The notes beneath the pieces are model-generated. The model did not search any database, was not told where the DNA came from, and saw nothing but the letters and a program-made list of their open reading frames with translations. The position numbers and the translations under genes were made by a program. DNA of 42,465 nucleotides from a bacterium (GTDB lineage Bacteria; Sysuimicrobiota; Sysuimicrobiia; Sysuimicrobiales; Segetimicrobiaceae): contig DATGJN010000083.1 of NCBI GenBank assembly GCA_035295165.1, forward strand, positions 1 to 42,465. Reading direction: 5' to 3'. The first letter of the stretch is position 1. Each line of letters starts with the position of its first letter. Below, piece by piece: positions 1 to 6,172 of the stretch.

Positions 1-108
1 TGAGGCCTGGACCTGGCCTAGGGTCACCCGCCGAATGGGAGCCGATGGCTCCGCTCGAGATCCCCTACCTCGTCAACTCGCCCTCAACTACAGGCGAGTT
101 CCGGCGCT
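1..108 (-). ncRNA. glmS ribozyme/riboswitch (3' part cut off by window edge)
   Basis: Read on the minus strand, the segment begins AGCGCC (108-103) and continues with a hairpin whose arms are ACTCGCC and GGCGAGT. It then reads TTGACGAGG, TAGGG, CTCGAG and the core TCGGCGGGTGA (34-24), followed by CCCTA closing P2. This order matches the self-cleaving glmS ribozyme core as I know it from Thermoanaerobacter and Bacillus: cleavage before GCGCC, P1, GACGAGG, P2, and the pseudoknot strand GGCGGGUG. In the family, glucosamine-6-phosphate triggers cleavage and lowers glmS mRNA. The site lies 180 bases downstream of glmM, so glmS is expected just beyond the left edge. P3 onwards is missing or only begun. 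An extra 6-bp hairpin (38-52, GGAGCC/GGCTCC with a 3-base loop) sits between CTCGAG and the core. Confidence 0.88.
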
Positions 109-150
109 TCTGTGAAGACGACGTCCCCCGCCACCCCCTTCCTGCCGTCC

Positions 151-287: not shown

Positions 288-1655
288 TCACGCAGACGGA
301 TCACGCGTCGTCACCGTCCCGTCGAGCCGCCGCGCGATGAGGTCGACGAGGCTCCGCGCCGTCTCGTGCGCGAGCGCGGCGACGTCGCATTCGGTCATCA
401 CGCGCACCAACGGCTCGGTGCCGGACGCGCGGACGAGCACGCGCCCACGCCCCGCGAGGCGCCGCTCCGCGTCGGCGACCGCGGCGAGAATCTCGGGGTC
501 GTCCTGCCAGCGCTCCGGAAACTGGACGCGCACGTTGAGCAAGATCTGTGGGAACCGGTGCAGGAACGGTTCGGCGTGTTCCTCCACGGGGCGGCCCGAT
601 TCCAGCAGCACGTTCATGAGCTGCAGCGCGGTCACCAACCCGTCTCCGGTCGTCGCATGGTCGAGAAAGATCACGTGTCCGCTCTGCTCTCCGCCGACGC
701 GCGCGCCGGTTTCGAGCATCCGCTCCAACACATACCGGTCGCCCACGCGCGCGCGCTCGAGACGGACGCCGCGCGCGTGCAGGGCGACCTCGATCCCCAT
801 GTTGGTCATCACCGTCGCCACGAGCAGGTTGCCGGGCAGCGTGCCCCGCGCCGCATGGTGAAGCGCGGTGATGCCCATGATCGTGTCGCCGTCGAGCACG
901 CGGCCGCGGCGATCCGCCGCGATCACGCGGTCGCCGTCCCCGTCGTGCGCAAACCCCAGGTCGGCCTGGTGTTCGAGGACCGCCGCCTGGATCACCTCCG
1001 GATGCGTGGACCCGCAGCCGGCGTTGATGTTCGTGCCGTTGGGGGAGGCGTGCAGGGGAATCACGGTTGCGCCGAGGCGCTCCCACAGCCGCGGCGCGAC
1101 GTGCGCGGTCGCGCCGTTCGCGCAGTCCACCGCGATGCGCCAGCCGTCGAGCCGCGCCCCGGCGAGCCCGACCAAGTAGGCGAGGTACCGCTCCGCTGCG
1201 TCGGCCACATCCTGGATGCGGCCGACGGCCGCCCCGGTCGGCCGCGGCAACGACGGAGCCTCGTCCATCATCACCTCGATCCGCGCCTCCATCTCGTCCG
1301 GGAACTTGAACCCGGTCGGTGCGAACAGCTTGACGCCGTTGTCCTCCATCGGATTGTGCGACGCGGAGATTACGGCCCCGGCGTGCACGTCGAGATCGCG
1401 CGTCAGCAACGCGATCCCCGGCGTCGGCAGGACGCCGAGGCGGAGCACGTCGGCGCCCGCAGAACAACACGCCGCGACGAGCGCGGCCTCGAGCAGGTCA
1501 CCCGAGATGCGCGGATCGCGGCCGACCGCGAACCGTCCCCGGCCGCCGGGCGAGAGCACGTGCACCGCCGCGCGGCCGAGCCGGTCCACGAGGTCGGTGG
1601 ACAGATCGGCGTTGGCGACGCCGCGGATGCCGTCCGTCCCAAAGAACCGCCCCAT
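288..1655 (-). CDS. glmM: phosphoglucosamine mutase GlmM
   Basis: The enzyme interconverts glucosamine-6-phosphate and glucosamine-1-phosphate for UDP-GlcNAc and peptidoglycan precursor synthesis in the cytoplasm. The 455-residue length is normal. All four signature loops of the alpha-D-phosphohexomutase family are visible. They are the phosphoserine loop ISASHNP (catalytic Ser99), the metal loop DGDGDR (238-243), the sugar loop GEQSGH (322-327) and the phosphate-binding loop RASGTEPLVRVM (409-420). It starts five bases after the cdaR stop and is the third gene of cdaA-cdaR-glmM, a widely conserved order that couples c-di-AMP and cell-wall precursor synthesis. A glmS ribozyme follows downstream, so both glucosamine-pathway genes are probably together here. 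Confidence 0.97.
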   Translation of the reverse strand: MGRFFGTDGIRGVANADLSTDLVDRLGRAAVHVLSPGGRGRFAVGRDPRISGDLLEAALVAACCSAGADVLRLGVLPTPGIALLTRDLDVHAGAVISASHNPMEDNGVKLFAPTGFKFPDEMEARIEVMMDEAPSLPRPTGAAVGRIQDVADAAERYLAYLVGLAGARLDGWRIAVDCANGATAHVAPRLWERLGATVIPLHASPNGTNINAGCGSTHPEVIQAAVLEHQADLGFAHDGDGDRVIAADRRGRVLDGDTIMGITALHHAARGTLPGNLLVATVMTNMGIEVALHARGVRLERARVGDRYVLERMLETGARVGGEQSGHVIFLDHATTGDGLVTALQLMNVLLESGRPVEEHAEPFLHRFPQILLNVRVQFPERWQDDPEILAAVADAERRLAGRGRVLVRASGTEPLVRVMTECDVAALAHETARSLVDLIARRLDGTVTTRDPSA

Positions 1656-1660
1656 CGCGG

Positions 1661-2851
1661 CTACGGCGCCACGGTCAGGGTGATCTGGGCCGGCGTGATT
1701 GCGAGCAGCCGGACGCCGTTCGGCAGGACGACGCGCGGCGCCACACGGCGGGCGCCGCGTGCGGGCCCGGAGGCGTCCACCTCGACCATGAGGGCGGACG
1801 GCGCGAGCCGCTGCACGGCGTCCTGCGGGCCCTCAACCTGGACGTCCACGTGGTCTGGCGCCGCCCGCGCGGCCGAGCCCTTGGGCACGCCCGAGATGCG
1901 CACCGGCACCCCCGGGAGGACCCGAGAGAGCAGCATCCGGCCGATGCGCACGACGACCGTGACCTGTTGGGTTTGGGCGGCGCTGCCCTGCGGGAGGGCC
2001 AACGCCACCTTCCGCGTCACGTCGCTGCGCGCGCCGCCGATGTCGATCGGCGCGGTGGTCGCGGTCTGGATCGCCTGCAGCGCGGTCACCGACCCCGACA
2101 CTGCGACGGTCTGCGGCGTGATCGTGACGCCGGTCACGGCGAGCCCCGAGGCCGGCGATCCGACGAGCGCCGGCACCACGGGCACGATCTTGGTGATCGT
2201 CCCCTCGCGCACGGGCAGCGTCGCCTGCACGATCGACGGATCGATCGTCAGGCCGCGCACCTCCTGGCCGGTCGCGTCGAGCAGGTGCACGGGGACCGAG
2301 CTGAAGAGCTGCTGTCGCAGCTGGGAGGTGTCGAGCGTCACGACGACGTGCCGCACCTCCTGCACCTGCGTCGCCGCGCCGCTGATCGCGACGTGATCGG
2401 GCTGGACGCGCGGCGTGCCCAGCGTCACTCCGGGGGGCGGCACGCCGATCAGGCTGACCTCGACCGCGAACCGCTGCCGCATGAGCGCGTCGATCACCAC
2501 GACGGCCTCGGCCGGGGTCCGCTCGACGACGCGCACCTCGGGAGGCGCGGCGATGTAGACCGGCTCCCGGTGCTCGCCGGGGCGGAGCCCGCTGAGATCC
2601 ACGGACGCGTCAAGCAGCGCCGGCGTGAGCAGGGCGAGCGCGGAGCGCGGTCCCTGCAGATGCACCTGCACGCGACTGGGCGCCTGCACCACCACCTCGG
2701 ACGCGCCCAGCCCGCGCACGTGGAGGTCGAGCGTCATGATGCGCTCGACGAGCGGGTTCTGCGCCGTGGCCACATAGAGCCACATCACGGTCGCGATCAC
2801 GACGGAGAGCACCGCGTAGACGAATCGCGTGTTGGCGAACCGCCGCCTCAT
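1661..2851 (-). CDS. cdaR: CdaA regulatory protein CdaR (YbbR-domain protein)
   Basis: The protein has a short basic N-terminus, one membrane helix (about residues 9-27, FVYAVLSVVIATVMWLYVA) and a long extracytoplasmic part made of YbbR-like beta repeats. That is the architecture of CdaR/YbbR, a membrane partner that modulates the diadenylate cyclase CdaA. The ATG at 2851 overlaps the cdaA stop as ATGA and has GGAGG eight bases upstream. A GTG 15 bases earlier is possible but overlaps that ribosome-binding site, so 2851 is preferred (396 residues). It lies between cdaA and glmM. The repeats are divergent, and the exact number of YbbR domains (probably four) is inferred from length. Confidence 0.9.
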   Translation of the reverse strand: MRRRFANTRFVYAVLSVVIATVMWLYVATAQNPLVERIMTLDLHVRGLGASEVVVQAPSRVQVHLQGPRSALALLTPALLDASVDLSGLRPGEHREPVYIAAPPEVRVVERTPAEAVVVIDALMRQRFAVEVSLIGVPPPGVTLGTPRVQPDHVAISGAATQVQEVRHVVVTLDTSQLRQQLFSSVPVHLLDATGQEVRGLTIDPSIVQATLPVREGTITKIVPVVPALVGSPASGLAVTGVTITPQTVAVSGSVTALQAIQTATTAPIDIGGARSDVTRKVALALPQGSAAQTQQVTVVVRIGRMLLSRVLPGVPVRISGVPKGSAARAAPDHVDVQVEGPQDAVQRLAPSALMVEVDASGPARGARRVAPRVVLPNGVRLLAITPAQITLTVAP

Positions 2852-3705
2852 GCCTCCTTCCTCCACGGCCAGAACGCTGGCACGCGGAGCGGCGGCACGC
2901 GCGGCACGTGAAACACGCCGGCTCGCATCGGCGCCGGGCCGGCGAGCGCGAGCAGGGCCACCTTGAGCTCTTCCTCGCTCAGGCCGCGCCGTACGCGTCC
3001 TTCCCGGGCGAGCGAGATCGTCCCGGTTTCCTCAGACACCACGACCGCGACGGCGTCCGTGTCTTCCGTGATGCCCAGCGCCGCGCGGTGGCGCGTGCCC
3101 ATCCCCCTGGCCAGCCCGGGGCGTTCGCTCAGCGGGAGCAGGCAGCCCGCGGCCGCAACGCGGTTTCCCCGCAGGATCAACGCGCCGTCGTGCAGCGGGG
3201 TGTTGGGATAGAAGATGTTGATCAGCAACTGCACCGTCACAACCCCGTCCACACGGATCCCCGTGTCGATCACGTCCTGCAGGCCGACCTGGCGCTCGAG
3301 CACGATGAGCGCGCCGATCTTGCGGGAGCCGAGCACGCGCGCCGCCCGTGTGACGTCGTTGATGAGCCGGATCGCGGCTTCGCGGTCCAGCCCGTGGGGA
3401 CTCAGCCCCACGAGCGAGACGCCGCCCCGGCCGAGCTGCTCGAGCATGCGCCGCAGCTCCGGCTGGAACAGGATCAGCAGCGCGATCGGGACGACCAAAC
3501 CAACGTAGCCCAACAGCCACTGCAGCGTGTACAGGCCCAACCAGCGGCTGACCACGTACACGCCGAACAGGACGGCCAGCCCGCTGACAAGCTGCACCGC
3601 CCGGGTGCCGCGAATCAGCATCAACACCTGGTAGACGATGATCGTGACGACCAGGATGTCGACGAGGTCCCACACGCGAAGCGGAAACGGTACCGGCCAG
3701 GGCAT
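2848..3705 (-). CDS. cdaA: diadenylate cyclase CdaA
   Basis: It makes the second messenger c-di-AMP from two ATP at the inner face of the membrane. Three N-terminal hydrophobic helices (about residues 15-80) precede the DAC (DisA_N) domain. The domain carries the NTPLHDGA motif (DGA 173-175) and the RHR motif (205-207), which bind and position ATP. I chose ATG 3705 because GGAGG (3718-3714) lies eight bases upstream. A GTG nine bases earlier overlaps that site. A CCGGC/GCCGG inverted repeat (3717-3731) overlaps the edge of the ribosome-binding site. The gene begins 48 bases after the argF stop on the same strand, with no obvious promoter between them, so read-through from the argF promoter is plausible. 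Confidence 0.96.
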   Translation of the reverse strand: MPWPVPFPLRVWDLVDILVVTIIVYQVLMLIRGTRAVQLVSGLAVLFGVYVVSRWLGLYTLQWLLGYVGLVVPIALLILFQPELRRMLEQLGRGGVSLVGLSPHGLDREAAIRLINDVTRAARVLGSRKIGALIVLERQVGLQDVIDTGIRVDGVVTVQLLINIFYPNTPLHDGALILRGNRVAAAGCLLPLSERPGLARGMGTRHRAALGITEDTDAVAVVVSEETGTISLAREGRVRRGLSEEELKVALLALAGPAPMRAGVFHVPRVPPLRVPAFWPWRKEA

Positions 3706-3753
3706 CCCGGCCACCTCCGGCGCGGCGCCGGTCGATCGGGGCGCGCAACCCCC

Positions 3754-4710
3754 TTACAACGCCAACGCGAGAAGGGACTTCTGCACGTGCAGGCGGTTTT
3801 CCGCTTCGTCAAACGCCACCGCGCGCGGCCCGTCCAGCAGCTCGTCGGTGATCTCCTCGCCGCGATGGGCGGGGAGGCAGTGCGAGACGACCGCATGGCG
3901 CGGGGCGTGGGCGAGCAGCGCGGCATTGACCTGGTACCGCGAGAACGCGCGGCGCCGGCCCTCGAGCTCGGCCTCCTGCCCCATGCTCGTCCAGACGTCG
4001 GTGTACACGAGATCCGCGTCCCGCACGGCCCACACCGGATCGTCGGTCACGTCGACGGTCGCGCCGTCCGCAGCGCACACCCGCGCATCCCGCAAGGTCT
4101 CCGCGTCGAGCTCGTACCCCGGCGGCGTGGCGATCGCCATCGACGCTCCGAGCCGGACGGCGCCAAGGACGAGCGAGCGAAGCACGTTGTTCCCGTCGCC
4201 GATCCACGCGATCCGGACGCCGCCCACGCGTCCGAAGCGCTCCTCGATCGTCAGCAACGCGGCCAGCGCCTGACACGGGTGCTCCCAGTCCGACAGCGCG
4301 TTGATCACCGGGACGCGGGCGTGCGCGGCCAGCGCCACCACGTTCGCGTGCGCGAAGGTGCGCGCGGCGATCCCGTCCACCCACCGCTCGAGATTGCGGG
4401 CGATGTCGGGGTACGACTCCCGGGTCCCCATGCCGATGCTCCGCGAGTCGAGATAGATCCCGTGGCCGCCGAGGTGCAGCATCGCCGTCTCGAAGGTCAC
4501 GTGGGTGCGAAGCGACGGCTTGGCAAACACGAGCGCCAGCACTTTGCCGGCGAGGAGCGGTGGGCGGTCACCGTGGCGGCCGCGCTGCTTCAGCTCCGCC
4601 GCCACGGCCAGCACGGTGCGCATTTCCTGGACGTCGAGATCGCGGATCGCGAGGAAGTCCCGCCCCCGCAGCTCGACCTGTGCCCGCTCCACCGCGTACG
4701 GCCTCTCCAC
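3754..4710 (-). CDS. argF: ornithine carbamoyltransferase
   Basis: It transfers a carbamoyl group from carbamoyl phosphate to ornithine to give citrulline in arginine biosynthesis. Visible motifs are the carbamoyl-phosphate loop KPSLRT (64-69), HPCQ (144-147), the ornithine-binding DxxxSMG (238-244) and HCLP (277-280). The last Arg of the usual SxRTR loop is His70 here. In-frame ATG codons at 4782 and 4761 fall inside the promoter and operator, so they cannot be the start. GTG 4710 has GGAGGGG ten bases upstream and gives 318 residues, the usual size. Two ARG boxes in the promoter indicate repression by an ArgR-type regulator with arginine. Aspartate carbamoyltransferase is excluded by the SMG motif. 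Confidence 0.94.
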   Translation of the reverse strand: MERPYAVERAQVELRGRDFLAIRDLDVQEMRTVLAVAAELKQRGRHGDRPPLLAGKVLALVFAKPSLRTHVTFETAMLHLGGHGIYLDSRSIGMGTRESYPDIARNLERWVDGIAARTFAHANVVALAAHARVPVINALSDWEHPCQALAALLTIEERFGRVGGVRIAWIGDGNNVLRSLVLGAVRLGASMAIATPPGYELDAETLRDARVCAADGATVDVTDDPVWAVRDADLVYTDVWTSMGQEAELEGRRRAFSRYQVNAALLAHAPRHAVVSHCLPAHRGEEITDELLDGPRAVAFDEAENRLHVQKSLLALAL

Positions 4711-4756
4711 GGTCCGCGCTCCCCTCCGCCGCTTTGGGTTCGAGGCATGTTGGTGA

Positions 4757-4792
4757 TGCATAATTATACATCCTCGGATCATAATAATGCAA
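4757..4792 (-). promoter_or_regulatory. argF promoter overlapped by tandem ARG boxes
   Basis: On the minus strand, TTGCAT (4792-4787) and a perfect TATAAT (4768-4763) are 18 bases apart, a good sigma70-type promoter. Box 1 (4770-4757, TGTATAATTATGCA) and box 2 (4791-4778, TGCATTATTATGAT) fit the ArgR operator pattern TGNAT-W4-ATNCA; box 2 departs at its last two bases. Their centres are 21 bp apart, two helical turns, as for paired ARG boxes of known ArgR hexamers. Box 1 covers the -10 and box 2 the -35, so ArgR would block RNA polymerase directly. This A+T-rich island stands out in GC-rich surroundings. Confidence 0.85.
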
Positions 4793-4943
4793 CACGGAGG
4801 TCGCGTCTACGCGGGCCCATCGCCCCGCGCCGTGGACGCGTGTGCGCGTCGAGCGCGGCGTCGGTCGCCTGCGATCGCGCTCTCGTAGTCACCGGGAACC
4901 CGAGGCAGCGAGCGTCCCTCGAGGACACAGTCGCGCGCCGCAC

Positions 4944-4990
4944 GACGCCGCGGACCGTGGCAACATGTCCCCACGGCGAGAGGCGGCGTC
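4944..4990 (-). terminator. two-part GC hairpin downstream of the NlpC/P60 gene
   Basis: GACGCCGC (4944-4951) pairs perfectly with GCGGCGTC (4983-4990). CCGTGG (4955-4960) pairs perfectly with CCACGG (4971-4976) around a 10-base loop. It lies 43 bases past the stop of the minus-strand NlpC/P60 gene and upstream of the argF promoter. The placement suits a transcription terminator, but no U-run follows. A weaker inverted repeat (4803-4839) lies between it and argF. The rest of 4793-5032 shows nothing else recognisable. Confidence 0.5.
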
Positions 4991-5032
4991 TCGTTCAGGA
5001 TCGGTCCGGGGACCGGGTGCCGCACGCGCGAT

Positions 5033-6172
5033 CTACAGGATGCGGCGGGCCCCCAGGTAGTGCGAGACGTAGTACGATTCGTCGAAGCCGTCGACCACGA
5101 CGCGGTGAGCGGTGCCGGACGCGTGCACGAACCGCCCGTCGCCGATGTAGATGCCGACGTGGGACGCGCCGCTGCCGTCGGTGTCGAAGAACACCAGGTC
5201 TCCAGGGGCCAGGGCGTTCGGGCTAACGGGAACGCCCGTCGCCCACTGATCGTACGACAGGCGCGGGAGACCGGGGACGTAGGGCGCATAGACGAGGTAC
5301 ACCAGACCGGAACAATCCACGCCCGCCCGGCTCGTCCCGCCCCAGACGTAGGGCGTGCCGAGGTACTGCATGGCCGTGGCGACCGTTCGTCGCGCCAGCA
5401 AGGTGGCCCGCATCGACAGCGGCACAGGGGTTCCCATGCCCGGCGTCGCGCGACCGGGAACCGTCAGCGTGTCGCCGTAGCGCCCGACCGCACTCGAGCC
5501 CGCGCCTGGCGCCACTGCGGGCGGCTCCGCGACCGCCACAAGATCGCCCAACGACGCCTGGGGCGTCGACGGCCCCGCGCTGCGGCCGCCTGTGGGAATC
5601 ACGAGCGCCTGTCCCACGTGCAGGGTGCCGGATGCGCCCAAGCGATTGGCGTCCTGCAGCTCGGCGACGGTCAGCCCGTGCATCCGCGCGAGGTGATAGA
5701 GCGTATCCCCCGGCTGCACGATGTACGTCGTCGGGGACGACGCCGGTGGAACGGCGGGAGCGCGGGAGGTCGTCGCCAGCAGCGAGCCGATGGTACTGGG
5801 CGATCCAGACGACTCACCGCCTCCCTCTGAACCGATGGAGCCGGTCGGCGGAACGGTGGCGCCCCAGCCCGCGCCGCGGGACGGTAGTGACGCGGGGCCC
5901 GCTGCGGCGTGACCGGGCGAGGCGGAATCCGGGATCGTGAGCACCTCACCGACGTTGAGCCTCGACGGATCGGCGAGGCCGTTGGCTTCGATCAGCAGTG
6001 ACACGGGCACGCCGAAGTGCCGAGCGATGCTGTAGAGAGTATCGTGCGAAGCGACGGTGTACCGGGTCGTTGCGTCGGCCGGCAATGCGGCCGCGAGCGC
6101 GACGCCCAGCGCGCCTACCCCGATCATGACCCATGCGACGACGCGCATGCTCCGCTTCCCCTTTCGCCCCAT
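5033..6172 (-). CDS. secreted peptidoglycan hydrolase, LysM x2 + NlpC/P60
   Basis: Likely a D,L-endopeptidase acting on peptidoglycan stem peptides outside the cell. A signal peptide (about residues 9-34, ending near ADAT) is followed by LysM 1 (about 36-80), a Ser/Pro/Gly-rich linker, LysM 2 (about 147-192, YIVQPGDTLYHLAR), a second linker and a C-terminal NlpC/P60 domain (about 258-379). The catalytic set is present: Cys287 in DCSG, His338 in SHVG and a third polar residue, His350. The start is either ATG 6172 or ATG 6148. The latter has AAGGGG nine bases upstream and gives a shorter n-region. The gene stands alone between the rpsI terminator hairpin and the argF promoter; I see no convincing promoter of its own. 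Confidence 0.92.
   Translation of the reverse strand: MGRKGKRSMRVVAWVMIGVGALGVALAAALPADATTRYTVASHDTLYSIARHFGVPVSLLIEANGLADPSRLNVGEVLTIPDSASPGHAAAGPASLPSRGAGWGATVPPTGSIGSEGGGESSGSPSTIGSLLATTSRAPAVPPASSPTTYIVQPGDTLYHLARMHGLTVAELQDANRLGASGTLHVGQALVIPTGGRSAGPSTPQASLGDLVAVAEPPAVAPGAGSSAVGRYGDTLTVPGRATPGMGTPVPLSMRATLLARRTVATAMQYLGTPYVWGGTSRAGVDCSGLVYLVYAPYVPGLPRLSYDQWATGVPVSPNALAPGDLVFFDTDGSGASHVGIYIGDGRFVHASGTAHRVVVDGFDESYYVSHYLGARRIL

Follow-up and report, generated by a model that had tools for sequence, protein, structure and literature searches.

The glmS ribozyme is a model of ligand-dependent RNA catalysis. Glucosamine-6-phosphate (GlcN6P), held in a preformed pocket, acts as the acid when the RNA is cut 5' of G1, and degradation of the glmS mRNA follows. 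The types that make up Rfam RF00234, such as those of Thermoanaerobacter tengcongensis, Bacillus anthracis and B. subtilis, have the same cleavage site and the same P1, P2, P2.1 and P2.2 as the ribozyme described here. They also share with it the GACGAGG and UCGGCGG core, the P3 and P4 domain and the downstream glmS gene. In Bacillota, a cdaA-cdaR-glmM(-glmS) arrangement is known. The gene content and order at our locus are the same as in this cluster, but the host belongs to Candidatus Sysuimicrobiota and about 0.6 kb containing the ribozyme lies between glmM and glmS.

The window, a stretch of 42,465 nucleotides, spans all of contig C83 in a draft assembly of 121 contigs from a member of Candidatus Sysuimicrobiota, probably of the family Segetimicrobiaceae. 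The original prediction had read its first 108 bases as a glmS ribozyme core running from AGCGCC through P1, GACGAGG and P2 to TCGGCGGGTG, and had proposed a search with the Rfam covariance model on the minus strand. All of these elements are present on that strand, and cmscan returned a significant RF00234 match at 119..1 (42.7 bits, E 8.3e-7), somewhat longer than the predicted extent. The match covers model positions 1-108 of 167 and, despite the loss of its 3' end at the contig edge, clears the gathering score of 37. Bases 1..119 thus hold the 5' two thirds of the ribozyme (P1, P2, P2.1, P2.2 and P3), ending at base 1. The core motifs A^GCGCC, GACGAGG, UCGA and UCGGCGG are all found, together with pairing potential for P2.1 and P2.2. 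From the RF00234 alignment and the established cleavage position of glmS ribozymes, the predicted cut falls between A(-1) (base 108) and G1 (base 107). The P1 hairpin, AACUCGCC...GGCGAGUU, occupies 75..100 (core residues 8 to 25) according to the cmscan structure line and the predicted fold. The conserved GACGAGG at 68..74 supplies P2.1 with its first strand, which includes the catalytic guanine, and also the start of P2, while UCGA at 55..58 (residues 43-46) provides the second strand of P2.1 (43-45) and A46; UCGGCGG at 28..34 (U51 to G57) pairs with the cleavage-site strand in P2.2 (roles and numbering after PMC7125110). Residue 6 is G, where A is common. The folding energy of the whole domain carries no information here (z -0.88). 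Judged by motifs and covariance-model score, the element is a glmS ribozyme of the known class in a little-studied phylum.

Upstream of the ribozyme, all on the minus strand, are glmM, encoding phosphoglucosamine mutase (288..1655; Pfam PGM_PMM I-IV), which is directly adjacent, cdaR, encoding a YbbR-domain protein (1661..2866; PF07949, E 2.8e-29), and cdaA, encoding a membrane diadenylate cyclase (2848..3714; Pfam DAC, E 1.3e-42, and CdaA_N). Since the window is the whole of C83, this contig holds no sequence past its left edge. The genome carries one full-length glmS (788 bits), on the minus strand of contig C114, the end of which lies 303 nt from the glmS start codon. Alignment with two congeneric genomes indicates that C83 stops after P3 and that C114 begins inside the P4 region (GGGCGACCGCGGGGACAAAAGGCGUC...), with about 21 nt missing in between; by the same alignment the P3/P4 3' domain of the ribozyme is found at the end of C114. 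No overlap was found between the two contig ends, which points to a gap rather than an overlap. The end of C114, searched against Rfam by itself, gave no match, and the short length of the fragment is the probable reason. The assembly apparently broke the ribozyme in its GC-rich 3' domain, and the left end of C83 (window base 1) probably joins the right end of C114 across the missing nucleotides. We infer this join and the adjacency to glmS from relatives rather than from one continuous sequence. In most relatives whose loci extend far enough the ribozyme is flanked by glmM and glmS, and contiguous, complete glmM-ribozyme-glmS arrangements exist among them. The order cdaA-cdaR-glmM-ribozyme-glmS is therefore likely here also. 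Thus, a covariance-model match was obtained and the gene placed downstream is glmS, as had been expected, and not another gene.

The main departure from the common form lies in the loop of the P2.1-P2.2 pseudoknot, residues 47-50 (PMC7125110). This loop is usually about 4 nt long, but it is expanded here to 20 nt (35..54), GC-[GGAGCC AUC GGCUCC]-CAU, and its last nucleotide, U50, is base 35. The predicted 6-bp hairpin at 38..52 on the minus strand, GGAGCC-AUC-GGCUCC with a 3-nt loop, is real: the 20-nt loop folds at -10.3 kcal/mol (z -3.2), only 0.4% of shuffles are as stable, and its stem shows compensatory changes among relatives. Among loops with an insert, most are more stable than almost every one of their own shuffles, though a few of the longest are not significant. 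Covariation in the helix was scored over its six pairs in 16 insert-bearing sequences, against 500 shuffles and controls in which the partner strand was slid; one sequence (G003) is off by one base in this alignment, an error that counts against the helix. The pairs form in 90.6% of cells, compared with 72.6% after shuffling. The covariation score is 0.461 versus 0.160 for shuffled alignments, a value reached in 0/500 shuffles, and it falls to 0.154 or less in every slid version. Both sides have changed at four of the six pairs. The position of the insertion next to the GlcN6P pocket is likewise borne out, since the hairpin closely follows residues 43-45, a strand that forms part of this pocket (PMC7125110).

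To place the hairpin in a wider context, we counted patterns over 43 genomes of the phylum and over Rfam loci. The insertion is present in all 12 genomes of the window's family (f1), with loops of 20-54 nt, and in all seven genomes of family f4, with loops of 19-21 nt; it is absent from 11 ribozymes of families f2 and f6, where the loop has 3-6 nt. An insertion at this very site also occurs outside the phylum, in ten glmS-associated ribozymes that belong to Oscillospiraceae or Actinomycetota, Aquicultor among them (L041, L046, L047, L051, L053, L055, L064, L068, L071 and L077), and Rfam confirmed the three that were tested. The alignment across homologs therefore changes one part of the original prediction. 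Though truly inserted, the hairpin is not unique to this ribozyme: it is family-wide and covarying, has counterparts in other phyla, and sits in a loop that tolerates most single mutations. On the GlmS tree, one change of state inside the phylum (support 80/85) could account for the distribution, be it a gain or a loss.

The same survey gave several further observations. Families f3 and f7 gave no glmS ribozyme match, nor did several genomes of f6, from genus g9 and elsewhere in that family, so the ribozyme seems to be patchy within the order. The glmS ribozyme of one f5 genome (G015, L022:1381-1732) has a very long P1 insertion, AGCGCC being some 180 nt ahead of GACGAGG. Its extra hairpin is a different one and lies between the 5' strand of P2 and UCGA. 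Carriage by viruses was rejected, as none of six glmS-like pattern matches in viral contigs is an Rfam ribozyme or lies near glmS or glmM. About half of the pattern matches in genome contigs (Demequina, Mycobacterium, Nocardioides, Chloroflexi and others) are chance matches with no AGCGCC upstream. A literature search returned no paper naming both the glmS ribozyme and Armatimonadetes.

The loop also contains a residue for which a tertiary contact has been described. A hydrogen bond links residue 50 to residue 8, at the foot of P1, on the evidence of crystal structures and mutational rescue (PMC7125110). At these two residues (window bases 35 and 100), 22 of 40 sequences have A8-U50, six have G8-C50 and one has C8-G50, while the remaining 11 do not form a Watson-Crick combination. 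The pair is uniformly A/U in f1 and is G/C in four f4 ribozymes. The shuffle test of this pair takes no account of relatedness and therefore gives an overly optimistic p value. This natural covariation supports the published contact. The contact appears to be retained in ribozymes with the hairpin, which suggests a hairpin that points out of the loop without disturbing the core.

Given the intact core and the covariation of residue 50 with residue 8, the most likely reading is that the ribozyme works and has accommodated the hairpin as a peripheral extension. Very probably, then, the locus encodes a functional glmS ribozyme in the glmS leader, downstream of cdaA-cdaR-glmM, in which the hairpin is a stable extension of the loop. 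Since the catalytic core is unchanged, the standard glmS mechanism should apply. Accumulated GlcN6P would bind the core pocket and serve as the acid catalyst, and the cut at A(-1)/G1 would lower glmS expression. The hairpin would be looped out of the core in place of a few weakly constrained nucleotides, with U50 remaining docked on A8 at the foot of P1. The likeliest effect of the hairpin would be structural, pre-organising or rigidifying the loop in a GC-rich RNA. The analysis demonstrates the identity of the ribozyme, its unchanged core sequence, the order of genes among relatives and a hairpin that is conserved and covaries; cleavage activity, the docking of U50 and any kinetic role of the hairpin are proposed here from sequence comparison.

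A different reading is that the element is a degenerate or inactive remnant. Though C83 contains only part of the ribozyme and residue 6 is G, we regard this as highly improbable: every core motif is intact, the missing third is found at the end of C114, f1 relatives have complete RF00234 matches of 50-89 bits, and the bulge at residue 6 tolerates substitutions (PMC7125110). The harder question is what the hairpin does. It could be a neutral insertion that is merely tolerated, a plausible reading to which we give somewhat less than an even chance, given its variable length, its presence in unrelated phyla and the permissive site. The compensatory changes in the stem and its presence in all sampled f1 and f4 genomes argue for some selection on pairing, but selection merely against misfolding would give a similar pattern.

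The hairpin could instead be a regulatory or kinetic element that folds during transcription and changes the rate of P2.1-P2.2 pseudoknot formation or the response to GlcN6P. It is kept and compensated across the whole family, it lies close to the pocket strand, and pseudoknot formation in the glmS ribozyme has been described as delicate (PMC11602151). However, sister families do without it, its length (19-54 nt across Sysuimicrobiota) and its loop and stem sequences vary freely, and single mutations at residues 47-50 are mostly tolerated in a mutational map (PMC7125110). An altered folding rate or ligand response is thus possible, but on balance we consider a regulatory role unlikely. We favor the stable loop extension.

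In family f4, the first gene after the ribozyme is not glmS but one for a fructose-1,6-bisphosphatase/aldolase (PF01950, E 3.6e-159). In each of the seven f4 genomes, this gene maps by its coordinates immediately downstream of the ribozyme. In other families it maps away from the ribozyme, and the three genomes of the window's genus gave no match to it. For the four loci that were read completely (L054:1577-3067, L067:1645-3166, L074:2779-4286 and L060, reverse complement, 4140-5655), glmS follows after 43-63 nt. With this arrangement, the ribozyme may control both genes. A simple consensus scan of L054 from the ribozyme to glmS found no promoter- or terminator-like site. We suggest that the f4 ribozyme also controls the enzyme supplying the GlmS substrate, fructose-6-phosphate, and thus acts on a step of this pathway that precedes GlmS. 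If so, GlcN6P would feed back on fructose-6-phosphate production as well as on GlmS in this family. The papers retrieved for the glmS ribozyme together with fructose bisphosphatase were, by title and abstract, on other subjects. A broader proposal, that the loop hairpin is a selected module tuning co-transcriptional folding or ligand response in the glmS ribozymes of Sysuimicrobiota and that hairpin-bearing f4 ribozymes control a joint bisphosphatase/aldolase-glmS transcript, is speculative and we hold it to be distinctly doubtful.

The ribozymes of this family are a known class with a conserved peripheral variant. Unlike the RF00234 types, the window ribozyme has a 6-bp hairpin within its P2.1-P2.2 loop, G rather than A at residue 6, GC-rich helices and a host in Candidatus Sysuimicrobiota. 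The family shows that the connecting loop of the double pseudoknot can take up a whole helix, giving loops of 19-54 nt, with the core and the 8-50 contact kept in step. Hairpin-bearing ribozymes are therefore natural test cases for work on core and periphery, and the loop is a candidate site for engineered hairpins. The closest parallels in form are the ribozymes of Aquicultor, other Actinomycetota metagenome-assembled genomes and Oscillospiraceae, which have a hairpin-capable insertion at the identical site and glmS downstream. They differ in that the hairpin sequence is unrelated and the loops are 16-39 nt long, and several of them have a longer stretch from GACGAGG to UCGA than the window ribozyme.
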